From a virus, in IMG/VR virus record IMGVR_UViG_3300001683_000139, positions 1-22,327 of that record: a stretch of 22,327 bases of DNA. One strand, given 5' to 3'. Each line of letters starts with the position of its first letter. The stretch's first letter is position 1. Shown one piece after another: positions 3,260 to 21,164 of this stretch. Position numbers and translations under genes: made by a program. Under the pieces are notes generated by a model that was given only the letters and a program-made list of their open reading frames with translations, did no database searches and was not told the DNA's origin.

Positions 3260-3267
3260 TATAAATA
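3260..3267 (+). promoter_or_regulatory. T4-type late promoter (TATAAATA)
   Basis: The octamer TATAAATA matches the T4 late promoter -10 element exactly. It lies in one of the few true intergenic gaps (3247-3302), about 36 nt upstream of the ATG at 3303, with CTAAGGGA as ribosome-binding site. In T4 such promoters need gp55, gp33 and the gp45 clamp; whether this phage encodes them cannot be seen here. Confidence 0.75.
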
Positions 3268-3302: not shown

Positions 3303-5126
3303 ATGAAAACATTTATCAATTTTTCTGAAACTGAATCCTTTTTAGATGATTTGCTAGAATATAGCATACATGAACCAAAATATGGTGCAGGTGAACAGGT
3401 AGTTGTTAAAACAAAAAAAATTGATACTGTAGCTGAACTTTTAGGCGTTAAAATAGATGGATCAACCATTTTAACAAAAGCAAAACCAACTTCTACTGCA
3501 ATAGAAGTAAAGGTAGGGGGTGGAGGAGATCAAGAAGTATATTTAGAAGTTGGTGGTAAAACATTTGTTCTGAGAGGAGCCGCTGCTACAATCAAAAACT
3601 ATTTTAATGGTTACAAAGACGGTACGGGAATAACATGGAAAGCAGATTCAATAGAAACTGCTCAATGTTTGGGACTTTATTATGATGCAGATGCCGCATT
3701 AGCAAAAATAGGTAAAGCAGGTGGTACACCATCTAGTAGTGTTACATCTTCAATTAAGTCGGAAATAAAGTCAGCTTTCGGAGGTAGTCAAGATTGGGAT
3801 AGTGGTGGAGTAGCAAAAATTACATCCAAACTTGATGATATTAGTTTAGGTGATATGAATTTACTTTTGGGTTTAGCTGCAGGAATGCAACTATTCTGGA
3901 AATCAGTAGGAAAACCAGCACTTGGAACGGCTTATATAACTCATGGTGCAATTAAAAGTTATTATTCCGCAGAAGAAAATAATCCGACTATTGAAGTTAG
4001 AGGATCAAAGGCTAATGCGGCAGATGTTATTATATCTAATGTGTCTTCTGATAAACTACTTTTAGCAATGAAAAAGGGAAAAGTTGAATATGATAACAAA
4101 TCAACTTGTTCTATAGTAGATTCAGACATTAAGTTTCTCCAAGTTTCACTAAAGAAGGCAAAAGGTGCAGCACAACTTGGTAAGATTACTGCAATGTTAC
4201 AGTCAAAGTACAAATTACCCAAATATGAAGTAATGTTAAAAACCTTATTAGATGAAGGATATTTAGATGAGGGATTTAAAGATTTTTTTTCTGGTGTTTG
4301 GAAAAAAATAAAAGGGTTTGTGGGTAAACTTAAAGGTTGGGTAAAGGGACTAACTAAAAAGTTTTCAAAGACATTTGATAAAAAAGTTAAAGGTGATTTA
4401 AATGATCTTCAAAGACAATTTGATAGAATGCCAGGACCGAAGGTTAATCTAAAGGAAGCCTTTAAATTTGATGAACAAGGATTTATTTGTGAAGGATTAA
4501 ATTCAGAATTGGCAAAATTAGATGTTGCAAAATTAAATATAATCAGAAAAGGAATCGAAAAACGGTTAAGTAATTTTGCAAAAGATGCTAGTTCACCAGT
4601 ATTTTCTTACAAAAAAACAGGTAGTTTAAATAGCGGTGTTATGAAGGATGTAGGAGATATATTTAAACTGTTTTCAAATTATACAGGTGTTTATGTTTTC
4701 AATGAGGTTATTTCTGCTAATTTAGGAGATATGAACAAATTAAAAAAAGAAATGATTGCAATGCAAAAAGAGATGTTATTTGGTAAGACCACACTTCCAG
4801 TATGGAAAGTATATGGAATTGGTGGAGGGGGTAATCCTTGGGAAAATTTACAAGGAGCAAAAGAATTTGAAGAAGGGAAAGAATCGTCTTTTGCGGGTTT
4901 AGTTGGTGCTGTGTGTGGATTCCATGCCAATAGTACTGATGGAGGAAATTATTATGCACTTGAAAGTTCTTTTTTGTATAGTGTAGATCCCGAAGGAATA
5001 CCAACATATACTTTAAATCGTATGGGAACTAATCAAGGAGGTTCAAATTTTTCTTTTGTTTTTGAGGGAGCAACTACTATTGATTCTAAAAGGTTTATAT
5101 CCAAATATGGAAAGGCAAGTAAATAG
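3303..5126 (+). CDS. Large late protein with amphipathic basic segment, 607 aa (putative virion protein)
   Basis: The gene sits directly behind a late promoter, so a virion role is likely. The N-terminus MKTFINFSETES is a weak match to the capsid-targeting-like motif of the following genes. The first half is Gly/Ser/Lys-rich and beta-like. Around residues 314-324 there are two LDE|G strings (E318|G319 and E323|G324) that fit the T4 gp21 protease consensus. They are followed at once by a Trp/Phe/Lys-rich amphipathic stretch (FFSGVWKKIKGFVGKLKGWV, then continuing basic to about residue 365). The C-terminal half looks globular. No enzyme motif is seen. Function unknown; a membrane- or DNA-contacting internal protein is one possibility. 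Confidence 0.75.
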   Translation: MKTFINFSETESFLDDLLEYSIHEPKYGAGEQVVVKTKKIDTVAELLGVKIDGSTILTKAKPTSTAIEVKVGGGGDQEVYLEVGGKTFVLRGAAATIKNYFNGYKDGTGITWKADSIETAQCLGLYYDADAALAKIGKAGGTPSSSVTSSIKSEIKSAFGGSQDWDSGGVAKITSKLDDISLGDMNLLLGLAAGMQLFWKSVGKPALGTAYITHGAIKSYYSAEENNPTIEVRGSKANAADVIISNVSSDKLLLAMKKGKVEYDNKSTCSIVDSDIKFLQVSLKKAKGAAQLGKITAMLQSKYKLPKYEVMLKTLLDEGYLDEGFKDFFSGVWKKIKGFVGKLKGWVKGLTKKFSKTFDKKVKGDLNDLQRQFDRMPGPKVNLKEAFKFDEQGFICEGLNSELAKLDVAKLNIIRKGIEKRLSNFAKDASSPVFSYKKTGSLNSGVMKDVGDIFKLFSNYTGVYVFNEVISANLGDMNKLKKEMIAMQKEMLFGKTTLPVWKVYGIGGGGNPWENLQGAKEFEEGKESSFAGLVGAVCGFHANSTDGGNYYALESSFLYSVDPEGIPTYTLNRMGTNQGGSNFSFVFEGATTIDSKRFISKYGKASK

Positions 5127-6343
5127 TGTTTGCATTTAATTCTTTCCTAACTGAACAGAAGAACCTTCACATGGAACACCTTGAAGATGAGGTGTTGAAT
5201 CATGGAGTAGAAGGAACAAGAGGAGCAATAAACTTCCTTCAAGGTTTACGTGATATGTTGGCCGGAAATTCTTCATCCTCTGTGGATGTTACAGTAAAGT
5301 GGGATGGTGCCCCCGCAATATTTGCGGGTACTAATCCAGAAAATGATCAATTTTTCGTAGGTACTAAAGGAATATTTGCCAAAAATGCGAAGATAAACTA
5401 TACTGAAAAAGATATAAATTCAAATCATTCTGGAGGATTAGCATCAAAACTTAAAGTTGCTCTCAATGAATTACCCAAGGCAAATATAAAAGGTGTTTTA
5501 CAGGGTGATATGATGTACACGGATGATGATTTAAAAACTGAAACTATTGATGGTGAATCTTATATAACTTTTCAACCAAATACAATTGTTTATGCTATAC
5601 CTAAAAAATCTAAATTGGCAGCCAAAATAAAGTCCTCTACAATGGGAGTCGTATGGCACACTACTTATAGTGGCGATACGATGGAGGACATGGCCGCCTC
5701 TTTTGGTGTAAGTTCAGGAGCATTCAGAGAAACTAGTTCAATATGGCAAGCAGATGCTAAATTTCAAGATACATCTGGAAGTGCTACAATGACAAAGAAA
5801 GAAACGGCAGATGTTACTAAAATATTAAGTGATGCTGGAAGGTTATTTAAAACAATAAATTCTAATATTTTAGGAATGATTGCAGATGACTCTCAAATAG
5901 GTGAATTAGTAAAGGTATATACTAATAAGATGGTACGACAAGGACAAAAAATAACAAATGTAAGAAAACACACCGCAGGATTGATAGCATTTGTATATGA
6001 CAAGTTGAAATCGGAGATTGATAAAGTAAAAAGAGAAGAAACAAAGAAAAACAAAAAAGAGGTGATGGATAAATATGTAGGATTCCTTAGGAAAAATTCA
6101 AGTGAAATTGTTAAAATATTTGAGATGCAAAATTTACTCATTGACGCAAAATTAATAATTATTCGTAAATTAGAGAAAGTAAAATCTATAAAAACATTGA
6201 TGAAAACATCTACAGGATTTAGAGTAACTGCTCCAGAAGGATTTGTTGCTATAGATACTCTCAAGGGTGGAGCCGTCAAATTAGTCGACCGAATGGAATT
6301 TTCAATGCAAAACTTTAATGCAGCAAAAAATTGGGATAAGTAA
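5126..6343 (+). CDS. Ligase-like nucleotidyltransferase (KWDG motif), 405 aa
   Basis: A GTG start at 5126 overlaps the preceding TAG by one base and gives MFAFNSFLTEQKN, a capsid-targeting-like N-terminus ending LTE. The sequence DVTVKWDGAPAIFAG (residues 54-68) contains KxDG (58-61), the motif I of the covalent nucleotidyltransferase superfamily (DNA/RNA ligases, capping enzymes), where the lysine takes AMP or GMP. GVLQGDMMY (about 123-131) and ITFQPNTIVYAIP could be motifs III and IV, and GVVWHTTY part of a later motif. Similar proteins occur in T4-like cyanophages, as a domain of unknown function as far as I recall. The C-terminal third is helical and lysine-rich. The substrate is unknown; the motif I assignment is good, and a ligase activity is inference. 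Confidence 0.75.
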   Translation: MFAFNSFLTEQKNLHMEHLEDEVLNHGVEGTRGAINFLQGLRDMLAGNSSSSVDVTVKWDGAPAIFAGTNPENDQFFVGTKGIFAKNAKINYTEKDINSNHSGGLASKLKVALNELPKANIKGVLQGDMMYTDDDLKTETIDGESYITFQPNTIVYAIPKKSKLAAKIKSSTMGVVWHTTYSGDTMEDMAASFGVSSGAFRETSSIWQADAKFQDTSGSATMTKKETADVTKILSDAGRLFKTINSNILGMIADDSQIGELVKVYTNKMVRQGQKITNVRKHTAGLIAFVYDKLKSEIDKVKREETKKNKKEVMDKYVGFLRKNSSEIVKIFEMQNLLIDAKLIIIRKLEKVKSIKTLMKTSTGFRVTAPEGFVAIDTLKGGAVKLVDRMEFSMQNFNAAKNWDK

Positions 6344-6505
6344 ATGAAAAAATTTAAAGAATATACTAGTATAGATGAAGGGTCAGATGATAATTTGGTT
6401 GAATTAATACGAGATATTACTTCTAAAATGATTGGTGCTATTAAAAAGAATGATCAAAGAAAGTTATTAGGTCTCTATAAAAATTTGGGAAAGATTATCA
6501 AATGA
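6344..6505 (+). CDS. Small protein with capsid-targeting-like N-terminus, 53 aa
   Basis: This short frame fills the gap between two confident genes. It starts with the ATG directly after the preceding TAA (6341-6343) and ends at TGA 6503-6505, overlapping the next ATG. The sequence begins MKKFKEYTSIDEGSDDN: the MKxFKxY opening matches the neighbours and IDE|G is a T4 gp21-type cleavage string. The remainder is a charged helix ending NLGKIIK. No enzymatic motif; possibly a small internal head peptide. Confidence 0.7.
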   Translation: MKKFKEYTSIDEGSDDNLVELIRDITSKMIGAIKKNDQRKLLGLYKNLGKIIK

Positions 6506-7344
6506 AACCATTTCGTTTATATTTAACTGAACTAGCATGGCAACAAAGTACATCCAAAATGGTATTTGGTTGGAATAGTTTTGATTATGTAATGTTACCA
6601 TTATCTCCTAGCATACTTGGTAGAATAATGGAACAGACCAGAGACACTTGTTTTCATGTAATGGGGTACAGAGACATTGGAAATTTAAAATCAATTCAAG
6701 GAAAGAAAAAATCAATTTCTGCATTTTTTAGAATGGAAGCAGACGCAATAGAAGATGGAGTACAATCAGGTGGTGCTATTGTCGCTGAACTGGAAGCAAA
6801 TGTTCTCTTTTCTGGAGAAGAAGATATAATGAGTAAACCCGATAAAACTGGTAGGAGATGGATTGATTTTGCTATTGCTACAGGAGAGAATAAAGGAACA
6901 CAACCAATACATACTCAAATAAAAAAAGATTTTGGAAAGATGTTGTCAGCCCTTTTGAAAAAAGAAAAAGTTAAACATGCCTCATCGATAGAAAGAATAA
7001 TTCAAGCTTGGTATGATTATGGAAATAAAGCAGATGGAAAAACAAAAGCAAGATTAATTGCGGGATATTTTGATGGATTAGAAGGAATAATGAAAAATAA
7101 AAAATATCATGCTGCAATAGCAAAGAATTTTTATGGGTACATACAAGATAAAGGTGGTTGGGCTGGAACTTGGGATGAACAAATAGTTAATAATATTTCA
7201 ATTAAAAAATTACATTTCTTAGAAGAAGCGTTAGAATGGGAAATTCCTGAAGAGCCAAAAAAACTTTCAGGAAGTATACCTTTTAAAATTTGGTCTTCTG
7301 CGGAAGACTTAGAATCTTACATTACAAAAAAGGCGGGAAAATGA
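6502..7344 (+). CDS. Tandem paralogue 1, ADP-ribosyltransferase-like (tentative), 280 aa
   Basis: First of three adjacent homologues (with 7628 and 8458). After MKPFRLYLTEL, the shared core is: LPLSPSILGR, then R47-x4-H52 in RDTCFHVMG, QGKKKSISAF (66-75), GGAIVAELEANVL (90-102), and DKTGRRW (114-120). Near the C-terminus come a DGLEGIMK helix and WDEQIVNN (224-231). The ordered R/H at the start of a strand, a Ser-containing strand, and a late WDE(Q/I)(V/I)VNN strand with Glu226 are reminiscent of the H/R-S-E layout of ADP-ribosyltransferases. No database match was possible. T4 Alt, an injected head protein, is an ADP-ribosyltransferase, so the fit with the N-terminal motif is suggestive only. 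Confidence 0.6.
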   Translation: MKPFRLYLTELAWQQSTSKMVFGWNSFDYVMLPLSPSILGRIMEQTRDTCFHVMGYRDIGNLKSIQGKKKSISAFFRMEADAIEDGVQSGGAIVAELEANVLFSGEEDIMSKPDKTGRRWIDFAIATGENKGTQPIHTQIKKDFGKMLSALLKKEKVKHASSIERIIQAWYDYGNKADGKTKARLIAGYFDGLEGIMKNKKYHAAIAKNFYGYIQDKGGWAGTWDEQIVNNISIKKLHFLEEALEWEIPEEPKKLSGSIPFKIWSSAEDLESYITKKAGK

Positions 7345-7631
7345 AATCATTTAGAGGCTTTCATGAAGGGTGGTTTTCTAAAAAAGAACCAGAAGATGAA
7401 GAAGAACAAGAATTACAAGACCTTGGTATGAAATCGTCCGGTAGAGGAAGTTGGTCTAAAAGAGATCAAGAGCGATATAATGATCTCTGGATGAAGATGC
7501 ACAAAAAAGGAAAAACACCAACAATGACACCACCTACTGTACATGGTGATGATTCTTGGGCGACTAAAACAACTAAGTTACATAAAAAACTTAGGTTAAC
7601 TAGAAAAGATCATCCAAGTGTTCTTTCATGA
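7341..7631 (+). CDS. Small acidic/basic protein with MKSF N-terminus, 96 aa
   Basis: The in-frame ATG at 7290 lies inside the preceding gene. The ATG at 7341 overlaps that gene's stop (ATGA) and gives MKSFRGFHEGWFSKKEPEDE, in line with the neighbours, so it is preferred. An acidic stretch (EPEDEEEQELQDLG) is followed by a basic half (KMHKKGKTPTMTPP, TKLHKKLRLTRKDHP). The conserved-looking GRGSWSKRDQERYNDLW segment suggests a small folded or DNA-contacting unit. The N-terminal motif is only a partial match (FHEGW). Function unknown. Confidence 0.65.
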   Translation: MKSFRGFHEGWFSKKEPEDEEEQELQDLGMKSSGRGSWSKRDQERYNDLWMKMHKKGKTPTMTPPTVHGDDSWATKTTKLHKKLRLTRKDHPSVLS

Positions 7632-7657
7632 AATCTTTTAAAGGATATTTAAAAGAA
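7628..7657 (+). repeat. Repeat of the MKSFKGYL coding start, copy 1
   Basis: The first 30 nt of the gene match 8458-8487 at 29 of 30 positions, far more than the rest of the two paralogues. This suggests recent duplication or gene conversion of the N-terminal tag. Confidence 0.8.
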
Positions 7658-8458
7658 GCACCGGCGTGGACAGAGAGTTTATCTACCATGTTGTTTGATT
7701 TACCAAGAGCAGGTTTGATAGATGTGATGATTCCATTATCTCCGTCTATATTCAAGAGAGTGTGGCCAGAACCGGTTCGTTCAACAGTATTTCATTTAAC
7801 TGATATGGATGGTGTTGGAAAATTGAAAAAAATGCAAGGAAAGAAAAGATCAATCTCTGCTTTTTATAATATAAAAGATTTTATACTTCAAGGTGGAATT
7901 AAAACAGATGGTGGTTATGTTGTAGAGTTAGAAGGTGATGTTCTTGTTGCTGCACCAGATGATGTATCAAGTCAACCAGATAAGTCCGGTAGACGGTGGT
8001 TAGTTTTTGGTACGATTATCAGAGAGATGGGTGGTGGAAGTAAGATCAAGAAAATGGAAAAAGACATAGAGAGTTTATTAGTAGATATTCTTGTTAAAAA
8101 CGATATGGGTCCATACAAGAAAAAACTGAGCCAACATGAACTTAACAAAGCATGGTCTTATCTTGGTAAATCTACTGGTGGGAAAGAAAAATCAATAATT
8201 ATCAAAGATTACATTAATGGTATGGAAAAGATCATGAAGAAATATTCCAAACAATTACATTCTATATTTACGGATTATGTTGATAAAAGAGAACTCATAC
8301 CAGATCCAGATAGTGGTGATACTGCGTTGTGGGATGAAATAGTAGTTAATAATTTTAAGGTTAAGAAAGTTCATGTGACTGAAGAGTATGGAGAAGGTTA
8401 TCAAGATGATGATGATATAGAAGGATTTCCATTTGAACTTTATCCAGATAAGAATTAA
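7628..8458 (+). CDS. Tandem paralogue 2, ADP-ribosyltransferase-like (tentative), 276 aa
   Basis: Second member of the three-gene family. MKSFKGYLKEAPAW opens with a capsid-targeting-like motif followed by LKE|A, which fits the T4 gp21 cleavage consensus exactly. The core then follows paralogue 1: MIPLSPSIFKR, R51 and H56 in RSTVFHLTD, QGKKRSISAF (70-79), GGYVVELEGDVL (95-106), DKSGRRW (118-124), INGMEKIMKK, and WDEIVVNNFKVKKVHV with Glu237. The C-terminal tail is acidic (YQDDDDIEGF) and differs from the other two. The first 30 nt are nearly identical to those of paralogue 3. ATGA overlap upstream, TAATG junction downstream. Confidence 0.6.
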   Translation: MKSFKGYLKEAPAWTESLSTMLFDLPRAGLIDVMIPLSPSIFKRVWPEPVRSTVFHLTDMDGVGKLKKMQGKKRSISAFYNIKDFILQGGIKTDGGYVVELEGDVLVAAPDDVSSQPDKSGRRWLVFGTIIREMGGGSKIKKMEKDIESLLVDILVKNDMGPYKKKLSQHELNKAWSYLGKSTGGKEKSIIIKDYINGMEKIMKKYSKQLHSIFTDYVDKRELIPDPDSGDTALWDEIVVNNFKVKKVHVTEEYGEGYQDDDDIEGFPFELYPDKN

Positions 8459-8487
8459 TGAAATCTTTTAAAGGATATTTAATAGAA
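8458..8487 (+). repeat. Repeat of the MKSFKGYL coding start, copy 2
   Basis: Second copy of the 30-nt tag-coding repeat; the single difference (A to T) changes LKE to LIE. Confidence 0.8.
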
Positions 8488-9333
8488 AGAGGAACTAGTT
8501 TATCAGATTTGATATTCCTTCCAAGAATATCGGAGTATAACCAATTGATGATTCCTATATCCTCATCTATGTATAAAAGAATTTGGCCTGACACACTCAG
8601 AGCAACAGTATTTCATACAACGGATGAAAAAGGTGTTAAGAAGATAGCAAAACTTCAAGGAAAGAAAAGTCAAATATCTGCATTTTTTGAAATGCAATCT
8701 AGATATATGGAAATTGGTGTTGCAACTCAAGGTGGTGTTCATTCAGTATTAGAGATGGACGCAGATGTTCTCCTATCAGCTAAAGGTGATGTGATGAGTC
8801 ATTTAGACAAGAGTGGTAGAAGGTGGACATCTATAAGGGATCTTGAAGAAACTTCTAGATTCGTAAATTTTAGTAAAGTACTGGTAGACCTTGAAAAAAT
8901 GTTTGCACCTTTAGTTGCGAAATACCTTGCAAGAGGTGAGTTTCAAGATTATGCAACAGTATTTCAACTTTGGGCAATGGCAAAGAGAAAAGTTGACAGT
9001 AAGACTATGAGTCTGATAATAAAAGATTACATGGATGGAATGGAAAAGGTTATCAAGAAAAACATCAAAACATTTAGTGATGTCATGTTGGGCTATGCAA
9101 AGAAAAGGTCAACCGATTATTCGTGGGATGAGCAAGTGGTCAATAACATTAAAGTTAAGACAGCTCATTTTTTTAAATTAAAACTACTAAGAGGCGAGAA
9201 TTCTTTGTCATTAGAACAACAAGAATTGATAGAGTTTGCTGAGTCTAAGGGATGGAAAACAAAAATGTGGGATGCACCTATAGAGTTAGAAGCATACACA
9301 CGGAAAGTTGCTAAAAAGGAATTAGGAAAATGA
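8458..9333 (+). CDS. Tandem paralogue 3, ADP-ribosyltransferase-like (tentative), 291 aa
   Basis: Third member of the family. It begins MKSFKGYLIERGTS, with the same tag as paralogue 2 but LIE|R, a poorer cleavage match. Core: MIPISSSMYKR, R48 and H53 in RATVFHTTD, LQGKKSQISAFF (about 66-77), a GGVHSVLEMDADVLL strand region, DKSGRRW, YMDGMEKVIKK, and WDEQVVNNIKVKTAHFF. The spacing matches the other two. The C-terminal extension is longer and charged. The persistence of H, the (S/I)SAF strand, GRRW and WDE in three diverged copies implies that these are the functional residues. Activity is not proven. Confidence 0.6.
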   Translation: MKSFKGYLIERGTSLSDLIFLPRISEYNQLMIPISSSMYKRIWPDTLRATVFHTTDEKGVKKIAKLQGKKSQISAFFEMQSRYMEIGVATQGGVHSVLEMDADVLLSAKGDVMSHLDKSGRRWTSIRDLEETSRFVNFSKVLVDLEKMFAPLVAKYLARGEFQDYATVFQLWAMAKRKVDSKTMSLIIKDYMDGMEKVIKKNIKTFSDVMLGYAKKRSTDYSWDEQVVNNIKVKTAHFFKLKLLRGENSLSLEQQELIEFAESKGWKTKMWDAPIELEAYTRKVAKKELGK

Positions 9334-9566
9334 AAACATTTAAAGAACATTTAACCGAGGGTATGCCGAAAGGTGCTGTAGCAGGATTTGATGGTCCCGA
9401 TGGAGAAATCGTAATTTATAAAAAAGGATCTGGATTTTATGGAGATACTGGTGATTTTGATTTTTCAGCTAAAAATGTGAAAGAACTTAAAAAAATATTA
9501 AAGGATATAGGGGCTAATCCAAATAAACCATCCTTTGGTTGGCTGCCGAAGTCAAGGAGATACTAA
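9330..9566 (+). CDS. Small protein with strong capsid-targeting-like N-terminus, 78 aa
   Basis: MKTFKEHLTEGMPKG is the clearest match in the window to the T4 internal-protein targeting sequence, with LTE|G as an ideal gp21-type cleavage string. The mature part would be about 68 residues, Gly/Asp-rich and beta-like (EIVIYKKGSGFYGDTGDFDF), followed by a helix (NVKELKKILKDIG) and a basic end (LPKSRRY). ATGA and TAATG overlaps link it to both neighbours. No enzyme motif; a small internal head protein is the simplest reading. Confidence 0.7.
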   Translation: MKTFKEHLTEGMPKGAVAGFDGPDGEIVIYKKGSGFYGDTGDFDFSAKNVKELKKILKDIGANPNKPSFGWLPKSRRY

Positions 9567-9877
9567 TGAAAACATTTAAAACGCATATTGATGAATTATA
9601 CAAAGATTATCCAGGCAAGGGGTGGGTATTAGGTACTAAAGATGAACCAAAAAAACTTAAAGATAAAGATATTATATGGAGATCCAAAGTTCATCATTAT
9701 GATGATACTGTAAGAAGTGATAACACAAGATTTATAATAGTAAAAAATAAAGGAAAATTTAGTATGTATGCAAAGAGTGACAAAAGTGGTAAAATAGTTT
9801 TTCATTTCGGTGATAAACCTACACTCGATGACGCAAAAGAATTCGCATCAATCAGAAAATGGCAAGAGAAAAAATGA
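9566..9877 (+). CDS. Small lysine-rich protein with capsid-targeting-like N-terminus, 103 aa
   Basis: The frame is open from 9539, but the ATG at 9566 overlaps the preceding stop (TAATG) and gives MKTFKTHIDELYKDYPG, matching the local N-terminal pattern; it is preferred. IDE|L partly fits the gp21 consensus. The rest is basic, with several short beta strands (TRFIIVKNKGKFSMYAK, KIVFHFGDKPTLDDAKEFA) that look like one small folded domain with a terminal helix. The function is unknown. Confidence 0.7.
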   Translation: MKTFKTHIDELYKDYPGKGWVLGTKDEPKKLKDKDIIWRSKVHHYDDTVRSDNTRFIIVKNKGKFSMYAKSDKSGKIVFHFGDKPTLDDAKEFASIRKWQEKK

Positions 9878-10905
9878 AAACAGCAGTATTTGCATTTGGA
9901 AGATTCAATCCTCCTACAATCGGACACGAAAAATTGATAGATGCAGTAATTGCAGTTAATCAACGTGAGGGTGGAACCGCCTTTATTTATGGTAGTCATA
10001 CACAGGATCCAAGAAAGAATCCTCTTACTCATAAACAAAAGTTTAAGTATTTGAAAGAGATGTTTTCAAGTAAAAAGAAGATTTTTCAAAGTAGATCAAA
10101 AACAAAGAACCCACTTGAGGTGGCATCTGAATTAAGTGGAAAATACAATAAATTGATAATGATAGCGGGTAGTGATAGAGTTTCAGAGTTTAAATCTTTA
10201 CTAAATACTTACAATGGGAAAACAGGTGGACACGGATCATATGAATTTGAAGAAATAGAAGTAAAAAGTGCAGGAGAACGTGATCCAGACGCAGATGGAG
10301 CATCTGGAATGTCAGCATCTAAGATGAGAAAAGCAGCAGTTAAAGGAGATTTTGATGCATTTCAAAAGGGTGTATCAAATGAATTAAATGAGAAAGATAA
10401 AAGAAAAATGATGAATGTAGTTAGAAAAGGATTAAAATTAGATGCAATCCTTGAAGGAATGAAGAGTCGAAGGGGTACACAAGAACCAGTTGAAGTCGAA
10501 AATATCGACCTTAAGTCTGCGAAAGAGTTATCATGGCAGGGTTATGATACTGTAAGTCTATCTACATGTGATGAAGCATTTGATTTATTTGATGAAATTG
10601 TCAATAGTGTTGGTGAGGCTTCTTTCACTAAACCTGAATTAGCATATCTTAAAGAATCATTAATTTTAGTTGATAACTGTCTTACTATTACACAAATACC
10701 AGAAGAAATATTAGAAGATGGAGATGTACAAAATTATATTCAATATTCCGGTAAAGCAATAAAATTATTGGAGCATGTTGGAAAAAAAGTAGGTATACCA
10801 TTTAACTATTCATTTTTAAACGTACTTCAAGTTAGTATGGCCAATGAAACCATACCTAAAAAATCATTTACAAAATTTTCAGGAGAAATGTATGGCGTCC
10901 GATAG
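9874..10905 (+). CDS. NMNAT-like nucleotidyltransferase with extra C-terminal domain, 343 aa
   Basis: The N-terminal 170 or so residues are a HIGH-superfamily adenylyl/cytidylyltransferase: AVFAFGRFNPPTIGH (4-18, with T-I-G-H as the nucleotide-binding motif), a LIMIAGSDRVSEF strand (94-106), and GMSASKMRKAAVKGD (145-159), equivalent to the ISSTxxR motif. NMN adenylyltransferase (NAD synthesis or salvage) is the nearest guess; the substrate is not fixed by these motifs. The start at 9874 uses the usual ATGA overlap; an ATG at 9859 would add only five residues. Residues about 195-343 are a separate helical domain I do not recognise, joined by AILE|GMKSRR, which happens to fit the head-protease consensus. 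Confidence 0.8.
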   Translation: MKTAVFAFGRFNPPTIGHEKLIDAVIAVNQREGGTAFIYGSHTQDPRKNPLTHKQKFKYLKEMFSSKKKIFQSRSKTKNPLEVASELSGKYNKLIMIAGSDRVSEFKSLLNTYNGKTGGHGSYEFEEIEVKSAGERDPDADGASGMSASKMRKAAVKGDFDAFQKGVSNELNEKDKRKMMNVVRKGLKLDAILEGMKSRRGTQEPVEVENIDLKSAKELSWQGYDTVSLSTCDEAFDLFDEIVNSVGEASFTKPELAYLKESLILVDNCLTITQIPEEILEDGDVQNYIQYSGKAIKLLEHVGKKVGIPFNYSFLNVLQVSMANETIPKKSFTKFSGEMYGVR

Positions 10906-18232: not shown

Positions 18233-18496
18233 ATGAAAACTTTTAAAGAATTAATAGGTGAATTTGGAGAAGCTCTTAAAAAAACAATAGTATATAGAGC
18301 TGGTAAAAAGAAAATTATTAGAAAAAGTAGCAAAGACGGATACAAAAACGTGGGCGGAAAAGAAGTAAAAATGAAAGCCGATGAAAAACGTGCACGTGCA
18401 AAAGCCATGAAAAAGGTTGCTAAGAAAATGGGAGGAAAAAGAGCAAAAATGGCGAAAAAACGAGCAAGAACAATGAGGAAACGCGGAGATAGATAG
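18233..18496 (+). CDS. Protamine-like basic protein with capsid-targeting-like N-terminus, 87 aa
   Basis: MKTFKELIGEFGEALKK starts with the local tag; IGE|F partly fits the gp21 consensus. The remainder is extremely basic: 34 of 87 residues are Lys or Arg, especially from residue 52 onward (KRARAKAMKKVAKKMGGKRA and further). This is what one expects of a DNA-condensing protein packed with the genome. T4 internal proteins are likewise basic and tagged. There is no membrane segment. It lies one base after the holin-like gene and shares its stop with the next start (TAGTG). The assignment as internal head protein is inference. Confidence 0.7.
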   Translation: MKTFKELIGEFGEALKKTIVYRAGKKKIIRKSSKDGYKNVGGKEVKMKADEKRARAKAMKKVAKKMGGKRAKMAKKRARTMRKRGDR

Positions 18497-19638: not shown

Positions 19639-19784
19639 TGGCGACAAGATCAGTATATAAAATCATTCGGAGGTGGAAGCCGAAAAATCAGAAAAGAACC
19701 TCTATAGGTAAATCTAGAAATACGAAACCAACAAATAAACATAAAATAAAGTGTTGGAAAAAATACAGAGGACAAGGTAAGTGA
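19638..19784 (+). CDS. Small highly basic phage protein, 48 aa
   Basis: A GTG start at 19638 shares one base with the preceding TAG and the stop overlaps the next GTG. The sequence MATRSVYKIIRRWKPKNQKR is followed by TSIGKSRNTKPTNKHKIKCW and KKYRGQGK. The TSIGxSxNTxPxNKHK...KKYRGQG pattern is one I recall in marine phages, supporting this as a real gene despite its length. It is probably nucleic-acid-binding by charge; function unknown. Confidence 0.65.
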   Translation: MATRSVYKIIRRWKPKNQKRTSIGKSRNTKPTNKHKIKCWKKYRGQGK

Positions 19785-20143
19785 TTAGTTTAACAGAAAT
19801 CGCAGCAAAAAACTTCAAGAGAATTCGTGAGGATGAAGAACTGTCTGAAGATGTTCCATTGAGAATATCTGTCAAGGGTGGTGGATGTGCTGGTTATGAG
19901 TATAGTTTAACATTCGGAGAACCAGCAAAGAAAGATTTAATGTTTGAGTCAAAAGGTCTACCTATAGTGATAGACCGCAAGAGTCATATAGTAGTGGATG
20001 GGCTAGAGATAGATTGGTCACAAGACTTATCTGCACCTGGCCCACGTTTTGAAAATCCTAGAGCGGCCTCAACGTGTGGTTGTTCTACTAGTTTTTCAAT
20101 CAAACCTCCTGATGAGGTTGATAAACCCGTGTGGATGAAATAA
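19781..20143 (+). CDS. A-type Fe-S cluster carrier (IscA/ErpA/HesB-like), 120 aa
   Basis: A GTG start overlaps the preceding TGA (GTGA). The family signature is complete: GGGCAGYEY with Cys36, and STCGCSTSF with Cys99 and Cys101, preceded by VDGLEIDWSQDL. These three cysteines bind the cluster or iron in IscA, SufA and ErpA, which pass Fe-S clusters to target proteins. Length is normal for the family. It directly precedes the IscU gene without a gap, so the two form a small Fe-S assembly operon. Which A-type member it is cannot be told from motifs. HesB/IscA genes have been reported in marine phages and viromes. Confidence 0.9.
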   Translation: MISLTEIAAKNFKRIREDEELSEDVPLRISVKGGGCAGYEYSLTFGEPAKKDLMFESKGLPIVIDRKSHIVVDGLEIDWSQDLSAPGPRFENPRAASTCGCSTSFSIKPPDEVDKPVWMK

Positions 20144-20530
20144 ATGGCATATAGTGAAAAAGTATTGGAACATTATGAAAAACCGAGAAATGTTGGTAGT
20201 TTGGATAGTGGGAGTAATAGGGTCGGTACTGGTCTTGTGGGTGCTCCAGAGTGTGGGGATGTTATGAAACTCCAAATAGAGGTAGATGAAAATGAAAAAA
20301 TTGTCGATGCTAAATTTAAAACTTTTGGTTGTGGATCTGCAATTGCGTCTTCTAGTTTGGCAACTGAATGGGTTAAGGATAAATCTATTGATGAGGCAAT
20401 GTCTATTCAAAATACAGTCATCGTGGAAGAACTTTCTCTTCCCCCTGTCAAAATTCATTGTTCAGTACTTGCAGAGGATGCAATCAAAGCGGCAATAAAA
20501 GATTACAGAGCAAAAAATGAAAAACTTTAA
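20144..20530 (+). CDS. iscU: Fe-S cluster scaffold protein IscU
   Basis: IscU is the scaffold on which clusters are built with the cysteine desulfurase IscS and released by HscA/HscB. All key residues are present in 128 aa: Cys37 and Asp39 (PECGD), Cys63 (FGCGS), Cys106 (KIHCS) and the HscA-binding LPPVK (99-103). The N-terminal YSEKVLEHYEKPRNVGSLD is typical. Because both the scaffold residues and the chaperone motif are kept, it should be able to plug into a host ISC system. The gene is about 38% G+C by hand count, against about 29% in the first 240 nt of the line-aligned sequence after it. This hints at a host origin. No IscS, HscA or ferredoxin gene is in the window. Confidence 0.95.
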   Translation: MAYSEKVLEHYEKPRNVGSLDSGSNRVGTGLVGAPECGDVMKLQIEVDENEKIVDAKFKTFGCGSAIASSSLATEWVKDKSIDEAMSIQNTVIVEELSLPPVKIHCSVLAEDAIKAAIKDYRAKNEKL

Positions 20531-21164
20531 AGATTTTATTAAAAACAAATTAAATGAATCTATAGATATAGAGACCAAAAATAGAACAAAGTTTTTAGTA
20601 CAATCTGTTTATACACATTATGCCGACCATTATAGTAAAAATCAACCAGAAGTTGTTGGGTGGATGGATGGTAGTGAAAATGCTCTTATACGTAATACAA
20701 AATTATATGAAGCAGGAATCGAAAATAAAGATTCAGTTTTAGATGTCGGATGTGGAGTTGCACATTTTTATTATTTTCTAGAAAATCAAGGATGGACGGG
20801 AGAATATCTCGGAATAGATCCAAATGAAAAAGCTATTAAATTAATTGAAGATAAAATTCCTTCTTTTTGTGGTACTATAGATGATATAGTTGGACATTCT
20901 TACGATTGGGTTTTAGCATCTGGCGTTTTCAATTTAGGGCTGAAAGAACAGCATACTAAATGGACTATCAAAAATATGATAAAAGTTGCAAAAAAAGGAG
21001 TTATATTTAATATGTTAGCTGCTCCATATGAAGATGATAATTATGTATCATATGTTCCTGAAGAAATAAAGAAATGGTTGGAGAAATTTGATCATAGAAA
21101 AATAAATATTATGGAAAATTATATGGATAATGATGCAGAATTTACAGTATATTTTTACATATAG
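20517..21164 (+). CDS. SAM-dependent methyltransferase with capsid-targeting-like N-terminus, 215 aa
   Basis: Class I Rossmann methyltransferase: motif I VLDVGCGVAHFYYFL (74-88), the acidic residue after strand 2 in YLGIDPNEKAI (Asp101), and YDWVLASGVFNLG as the motif IV region. The target (small molecule, protein or nucleic acid) is not evident; no DPPY-type motif of DNA adenine methylases is seen. The N-terminus MKNFKDFIKNKLNESIDI resembles the local tag, and LNE|S fits the gp21 consensus, so it might travel in the head. The start overlaps iscU by 14 nt. Confidence 0.75.
   Translation: MKNFKDFIKNKLNESIDIETKNRTKFLVQSVYTHYADHYSKNQPEVVGWMDGSENALIRNTKLYEAGIENKDSVLDVGCGVAHFYYFLENQGWTGEYLGIDPNEKAIKLIEDKIPSFCGTIDDIVGHSYDWVLASGVFNLGLKEQHTKWTIKNMIKVAKKGVIFNMLAAPYEDDNYVSYVPEEIKKWLEKFDHRKINIMENYMDNDAEFTVYFYI

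Follow-up and report, generated by a model that had tools for sequence, protein, structure and literature searches.

The locus and its three paralogues

The window analysed here, the whole 22,327-nucleotide stretch of IMG/VR virus record IMGVR_UViG_3300001683_000139, is a 22.3-kb fragment of a T4-like marine virus. It carries three paralogous genes of 280, 276 and 291 amino acids (aa) whose products resemble ADP-ribosyltransferases (ARTs) and begin with a predicted capsid-targeting sequence (Table 1). The closest relatives of the DnaB-type helicase and the DUF6267 protein of the window are found in cyanophages, HTVC008M, Melnitz phages and marine single-cell virus records.

The three proteins can be aligned end to end with 35–38% identity, and the E-values between copies (2e-46 and 2e-43) place their paralogy beyond chance. 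The initial annotation had described them as three tandem diverged genes of these lengths, with a common series of motifs and an ART-like signature behind a head tag. All three open reading frames (ORFs) are present and clustered, but a small tag-like ORF intervenes between paralogues 1 and 2. Nearly all of the motifs recur in the same order; the RxTxFHxTD motif, however, reads RDTCFHVMG in paralogue 1, where the final Thr and Asp are not kept but the His, Ser and Glu of the signature are. Paralogue 2 of the window is 11 residues shorter than an otherwise near-identical copy in contigs L001 and L002 (276 vs 287 aa). The shortening probably stems from an indel near the 3' end of the gene, and the difference in length is also compatible with an assembly error there.

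Conservation and history of the family

Scans of IMG/VR recovered 21 relatives of paralogue 2 and, by profile, at least 150 related stretches. The family set used here comprises 121 distinct near-full-length proteins, almost all of them from contigs of marine viruses, which keep the same key residues as the window copies. In the numbering of paralogue 2, residues R51, H56, G90, E100, D112, G121, R123, I192, Y195, Y217 and E237 are invariant in all 121 proteins and S77 is kept in 119. Searches up to an E-value of 1 detected no relative among 50,697 phage records, none was found in the Melnitz and HTVC008M genomes, and the family had no match in Pfam, PHROGs or NCBIfam at the sensitivities used, nor in a sequence search of the PDB. 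It has thus escaped sequence methods and the reference phage genomes used, despite its abundance in IMG/VR contigs.

Multiple copies are common. Among copies that pass the length filter, at least two are found together in 40 contigs and at least three in nine, and the short contig L030 holds four in a row. Copies from the same contig mostly belong to different clades, which are well supported and are encountered again in other contigs; the duplications are therefore old and have been retained. The paralogues thus represent ancient subfamilies that have persisted next to each other, a pattern that fits separate roles, the multi-target function suggested in the initial annotation being hypothetical. 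A relative in another contig (L021:1135-2054) is broken into two ORFs, which suggests a frameshift or a decayed copy.

Copies occur at two recurring sites, one beside the DUF6267 and cytidylyltransferase genes and the other beside iscU. In the window itself, genes for an A-type iron-sulfur carrier (TIGR00049, E 3e-27) and IscU (TIGR01999, E 4e-64, above the cut-off) lie side by side at 19781-20530, and a syntenic contig of 134 kb also has iscU, near an ART-like copy. Further matches come from short contigs whose bins had been given assignments in several phyla; relatives in L090, L091, L092 and L093 were binned with metagenome-assembled genomes of Saprospiraceae, Flavobacteriales, Chloroflexi and Pacearchaeota. 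These are most likely phage contigs that were wrongly binned, and for that reason no host is inferred from them.

Predicted fold

AlphaFold2 models were built for paralogue 2 (26 sequences) and paralogue 3 (89 sequences). The latter reached a predicted local distance difference test (pLDDT) of 85.7 and a predicted template modelling score (pTM) of 0.83, and the former, from a shallower alignment, is the weaker model with a pLDDT of 80.6. When VIA-align was run on the 1000 best chains from Foldseek, four chains alone matched the paralogue 3 model at Z of at least 5, and all four are ARTs: DarT1 (8baq; Z 6.3, root-mean-square deviation (rmsd) 4.9, 148 residues aligned), DarT2 in two entries (7omx; Z 6.1, rmsd 3.9, 129 aligned; and 7omy; Z 5.9, rmsd 3.9, 128 aligned) and CteC (8ux2; Z 5.7, rmsd 5.5, 170 aligned; a comparison taken from the fold-search row alone). 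DarT1 and DarT2 are DNA ADP-ribosyltransferase toxins of DarTG systems, and CteC is a protein modifier. The top non-ART chain, a helical-insert match, stands at Z 4.5, and Tpt1/KptA and PARP14 chains follow at Z of about 3 (3.2-3.6 for KptA/Tpt1). The paralogue 2 model retrieved DarT at Z 4.1 together with many PARP, Tpt1 and TreTu chains, with a non-ART helical match at an equal level.

Structure prediction and fold search therefore bring ARTs to the top of the VIA-align list, Foldseek alone not being significant. The ART fold, a split six-stranded sheet, is supported at moderate strength, the top four chains standing at Z 5.7-6.3 against 4.5 for the next. A Z of about 6 is by itself short of proof; confidence is raised by a top list drawn from a single superfamily and by the agreement of residues described below.

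Candidate active-site residues

The match to 7omx begins with model residue 47 opposite chain residue 7 and so places H53 of paralogue 3 on H13 in the YHITH motif of DarT2. Entry numbering is taken as index minus one, because the Glu160Ala site is found at index 161; YH stands at 13-14 in the sequence common to 7omv and 7omx. The match to KptA 9ld4 begins with 46 opposite 91, placing H53 on H98 of LYHGT, and both registers assume a first strand free of gaps. H53, invariant in 121 of 121 proteins, is thus in register with the NAD-binding His of two separate ART families, and putative NAD+ binding would involve this residue.

E225, also invariant throughout the family, is the first residue of model strand 225-239. 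It lies 51 residues before the last aligned residue, compared with 49 for E160 of DarT2, and the helix and strand that follow are shared as well. Judged by its distance from the C-terminal end of the match, E225 would be the counterpart of the catalytic Glu that opens the fifth strand of ARTs. For the middle position, DarT1 offers a solved precedent of an H-S-E pattern: it binds NAD+ through H17 and T19 and has Ser where the H-Y-E motif has Tyr, that Ser being dispensable there. At the corresponding H-x-T and Ser positions the family is conserved at 100% (H), 98% (T) and 98% (S). The His, Ser and Glu positions all fall within the 18 of 276 columns that are at least 98% conserved, with P about 2e-4 if columns were drawn at random, although this is not a fully independent test as the positions had been proposed from conserved motifs in the initial annotation. 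The ART-like character suggested there is now supported mainly by the fold comparison, with four ART chains on top, and by the register of the His and Glu.

Several further features distinguish the family. WDE is found in 118 of the 121 proteins at the place where Arg-specific ARTs carry ExE, and an invariant Arg lies five residues ahead of the invariant His. A helical insert of about 100 residues, with invariant Tyr residues, separates the fourth strand from the Glu strand. Since it sits where the target-binding loop of DarT and PARP proteins stands, it is likely to be the part that recognizes the target.

The register with KptA raises the possibility of a KptA/Tpt1-like RNA 2'-phosphotransferase serving RNA repair, for which the chains at Z 3.2-3.6, aligned on the His, could be cited. 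We regard this as highly improbable: the structural match is confined to the central core, the HVH motif of Tpt1 is absent, and KptA belongs to an H-H-h clade without the catalytic Glu (PMC9503650), the very residue that is invariant here.

N-terminal tag and gene block

Targeting of proteins to the T4 prohead depends on a ten-residue capsid-targeting sequence in which residues 4 and 7 govern targeting and residues 8 and 10 processing (PMC9026906). The N-termini of the family agree with these determinants, with Phe at position 4 in 115 of 121 proteins, Tyr, Phe or His at position 7, Leu or Ile at position 8 in 114, and Glu at position 10 in 113. When the pattern is applied in a strict form, seven window ORFs match, each of them on the coding strand, and the reversed sequence gives no match. 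Unrelated proteins also carry the tag, which would be anticipated for a sorting signal, and between 3303 and 9877 consecutive genes are tagged or tag-like.

Table 1. Features of the tagged block in the window
Feature	Position	Strand	Remarks
T4-type late promoter motif TATAAATA, start of tagged block	3260..3267	+	conserved place in other loci
First gene of tagged block, 607 aa	3303..5126	+	N-terminus MKTFINFSE (tag-like); putative product without assigned function
DUF6267 protein	5126..6343	+	GTG start; N-terminus MFAFNSFLTE (tag-like); Pfam E 1.7e-112
Small ORF, 53 aa	6344..6505	+	MKKFKEYTSIDE, tag-like
ART-like paralogue 1, 280 aa	6502..7344	+	tag MKPFRLYLTE; H52, S73, E226
Predicted capsid-targeting sequence, paralogue 1, codons 1-10	6502..6531	+	
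Small ORF separating paralogues 1 and 2	7341..7631	+	MKSFRGFHE, tag-like
ART-like paralogue 2, 276 aa	7628..8458	+	tag MKSFKGYLKE; H56, S77, E237
Predicted capsid-targeting sequence, paralogue 2, codons 1-10	7628..7657	+	
ART-like paralogue 3, 291 aa	8458..9333	+	tag MKSFKGYLIE; H53, S74, E225; model pLDDT 85.7
Predicted capsid-targeting sequence, paralogue 3, codons 1-10	8458..8487	+	
Small tagged protein, 78 aa	9330..9566	+	MKTFKEHLTE
Small tagged protein, 103 aa	9566..9877	+	MKTFKTHIDE
Cytidylyltransferase-like protein	9859..10905	+	homologue of T4-GC190

The block is headed by the motif TATAAATA, found about 40 bases before its first gene in all four loci where this could be tested (the window, L025, L051 and L055) and at about the same distance before the same gene in the 134-kb contig, making five loci in all, one of which is nearly identical to the window. 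The window holds one exact match where 3.65 would be expected by chance, that is, fewer than expected, and allowing one mismatch revealed no enrichment in it. Because matches in the window are not above chance, the support that the motif gives comes from its conserved position alone. With a single late promoter motif ahead of it, the series of tagged or tag-like genes at 3303-9877 is likely to be a cassette of head-packaged proteins.

Two observations from relatives bear on packaging. The window is itself a fragment, and the syntenic 134-kb contig encodes homologues of gp21 (E 1e-25), gp22, gp23 and gp24. Purified virions of cyanophage S-SM1 were found to contain the T4-GC190 cytidylyltransferase (PMC3037559), which is encoded in the homologous block and has a tagged N-terminus, MKKFSAFLNE. 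The head tag of the initial annotation is thus supported by the conservation of the T4 determinants, by gp21 in the syntenic contig, by the late motif and by the tagged virion protein of S-SM1.

Other products of the window have related N-termini. A tagged 87-aa protein at 18233-18496, with a net charge of +26, recalls the basic internal head proteins of T4. The product of 20517-21164 and its homologues (e.g. L033:7457-8095) combine a DVGCG motif resembling that of methyltransferases with an N-terminus that is tagged or tag-like, the homologue in L033 being tagged.

Weighing the fold and the packaging

A number of results weigh against the interpretation of these proteins as packaged ARTs. Foldseek against the PDB and viral models returned no match at E<=0.001 for either model, and the best Z of 6.3 is below 8, the level that VIA-align itself treats as safe. 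Pfam and PDB sequence searches gave no ART match. A profile search with hhalign, an approach suggested in the initial annotation, gave no link to locally built DarT, PARP, Tpt1 and PolyVal profiles, a weak negative given that these ART profiles came from fetched genomes and were small (2-14 sequences). Its highest scores were to unrelated families of the same viruses (DUF6267, methyltransferase-like and others), driven by the common N-terminal tag. On the side of packaging, some family members are without a clean tag, such as one in the 134-kb contig that begins MLTLKEYAVY, and no virion proteome was found for any virus carrying this family.

The first group of these results would be expected if the proteins were internal head proteins of a non-ART fold, with another enzymatic or structural role, and if the Z scores reflected a common split-sheet arrangement: Foldseek is not significant, Z is below 8 and a sequence-profile link is absent. 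We consider this unlikely, as the top four chains are all ARTs with other ART families recurring lower in the list, the His is in register with the NAD-binding His in two distinct ART families, and the three active-site positions are all among the most conserved columns, with the reservation on independence given above.

The second group would suit active but unpackaged ARTs, ordinary late cytoplasmic proteins in which the N-terminal motif has another purpose; the match to the tag spans ten residues and the virion evidence for the family is not direct. Such an explanation appears quite improbable, however, given that the motif, on which the hhalign matches are anchored, is common to unrelated proteins of the same viruses, that it agrees with the T4 determinants, and that a cyanophage virion protein encoded in the same block carries it.

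Proposed function and significance

We consider it probable that the three genes encode late-made, head-packaged and injected ARTs of an undescribed DarT/PARP-like H-S-E family that modify host molecules, both the activity and the target being putative. Expression would occur late, from the block headed by the T4-type late promoter motif, and the first ten residues would act as a T4-type capsid-targeting sequence, allowing entry into the prohead core. There a gp21-type protease would cut after (L/I)-x-E, and the mature enzymes would be ejected together with the DNA to use host NAD+ for ADP-ribosylation of host macromolecules early in infection. Targets or specificities probably differ between the copies, given their great age and separate conservation.

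The same delivery could serve enzymes of ART fold that act on NAD+ or NAD-derived signals as NADases or in counter-defence, rather than on macromolecules. Packaging and an action against NAD-based immunity are frequent predictions for phage proteins of the NAD+-ADP-ribose network (PMC9503650), and a transferase is not separable from an NADase by the fold and the H-S-E pattern. We nevertheless think this rather improbable, since the large insert with invariant Tyr residues at the target-loop site suggests a macromolecular partner, and several ancient paralogues in one virus are more easily explained by different targets.

A narrower form of the preferred explanation, ADP-ribosylation of host macromolecules, is put forward only tentatively: the viruses may inject a set of DarT-like enzymes, two to four in number, with host nucleic acid (DNA, mRNA or tRNA) as the substrate of ADP-ribosylation and each ancient copy directed at a different base or RNA. 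Nucleic acid is a candidate target in view of the resemblance to DarT. The protein modifier CteC reaches nearly the same Z, however, and the fold thus cannot discriminate between targets. If true, this nucleic-acid-modifying function would turn an anti-phage toxin fold into a phage weapon.

T4 Alt is the prototype of packaged phage ARTs. Such enzymes are a known theme, and a survey from 2022 predicts many more (PMC9503650). As far as the libraries searched show, what is new here is the family itself, the DarT-like fold with its H-S-E pattern, the pairing with a T4-type tag and the ancient multi-copy state in marine viruses. If the proposal is correct, T4-like phages would possess a second delivery-ready ART lineage, with a fold near that of the DarT toxins used against phages, and the family would make it possible to test directly what keeps several ancient copies in place. 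With the tag rule, sequence alone could also serve to list which proteins uncultured marine T4-like viruses inject.

Comparison with known systems

The parallel with T4 Alt drawn in the initial annotation holds for the proposed delivery, in which the protein is carried in the head, cut by gp21 and injected, but not for the enzyme class, as the nearest ARTs are DarT1 and DarT2 of the PARP-like H-[Y/S]-E class and not the R-S-E class of Alt and ModA. Arg-specific R-S-E ARTs carry ExE and a catalytic Arg in the first strand, whereas this family has WDE and a first-strand His in their place and is therefore not Alt-like. The survey of viral ARTs assigns the T4 Alt and Mod proteins to R-S-E and PARP-like viral families to H-Y-[EDQ] (PMC9503650), and the latter group is the better fit. 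Alt also differs at its N-terminus, MELITELFDE; an old partial duplication of alt is noted in the T4 record, and no Alt homologue was found in the 134-kb contig.

The T4 internal proteins IPII and IPIII have the tag MKTYQEFIAE, which agrees at positions 4, 7, 8 and 10, but T4 internal proteins are small and basic and none is described as an ART. The cyanophage T4-GC190 and DUF6267 proteins share the genomic block after the helicase, yet they are unrelated families, widespread in cyanophages, where the ART-like family was not found. KptA/Tpt1 and PARP14 share the ART core with the His in register, but both are weak matches; KptA is without the Glu and PARPs have a middle Tyr.

Of the known systems, DarT1 and DarT2 come closest. 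The family is distinct from DarT (PF14487), with no Pfam match, an hhalign probability of 0.1% against the local DarT profile, no similarity at the level of sequence and WDE where DarT has QxE. It is also without the long NAD-binding loop and has instead the helical insert of about 100 residues and the N-terminal head tag. However, DarT1 and DarT2 rank first in the structural comparison, with matches that extend across most of the domain and take in the helix and strand behind the Glu strand, and they share with the family H-x-T in the first strand and the Glu at the start of the fifth, with a middle Ser as in DarT1.

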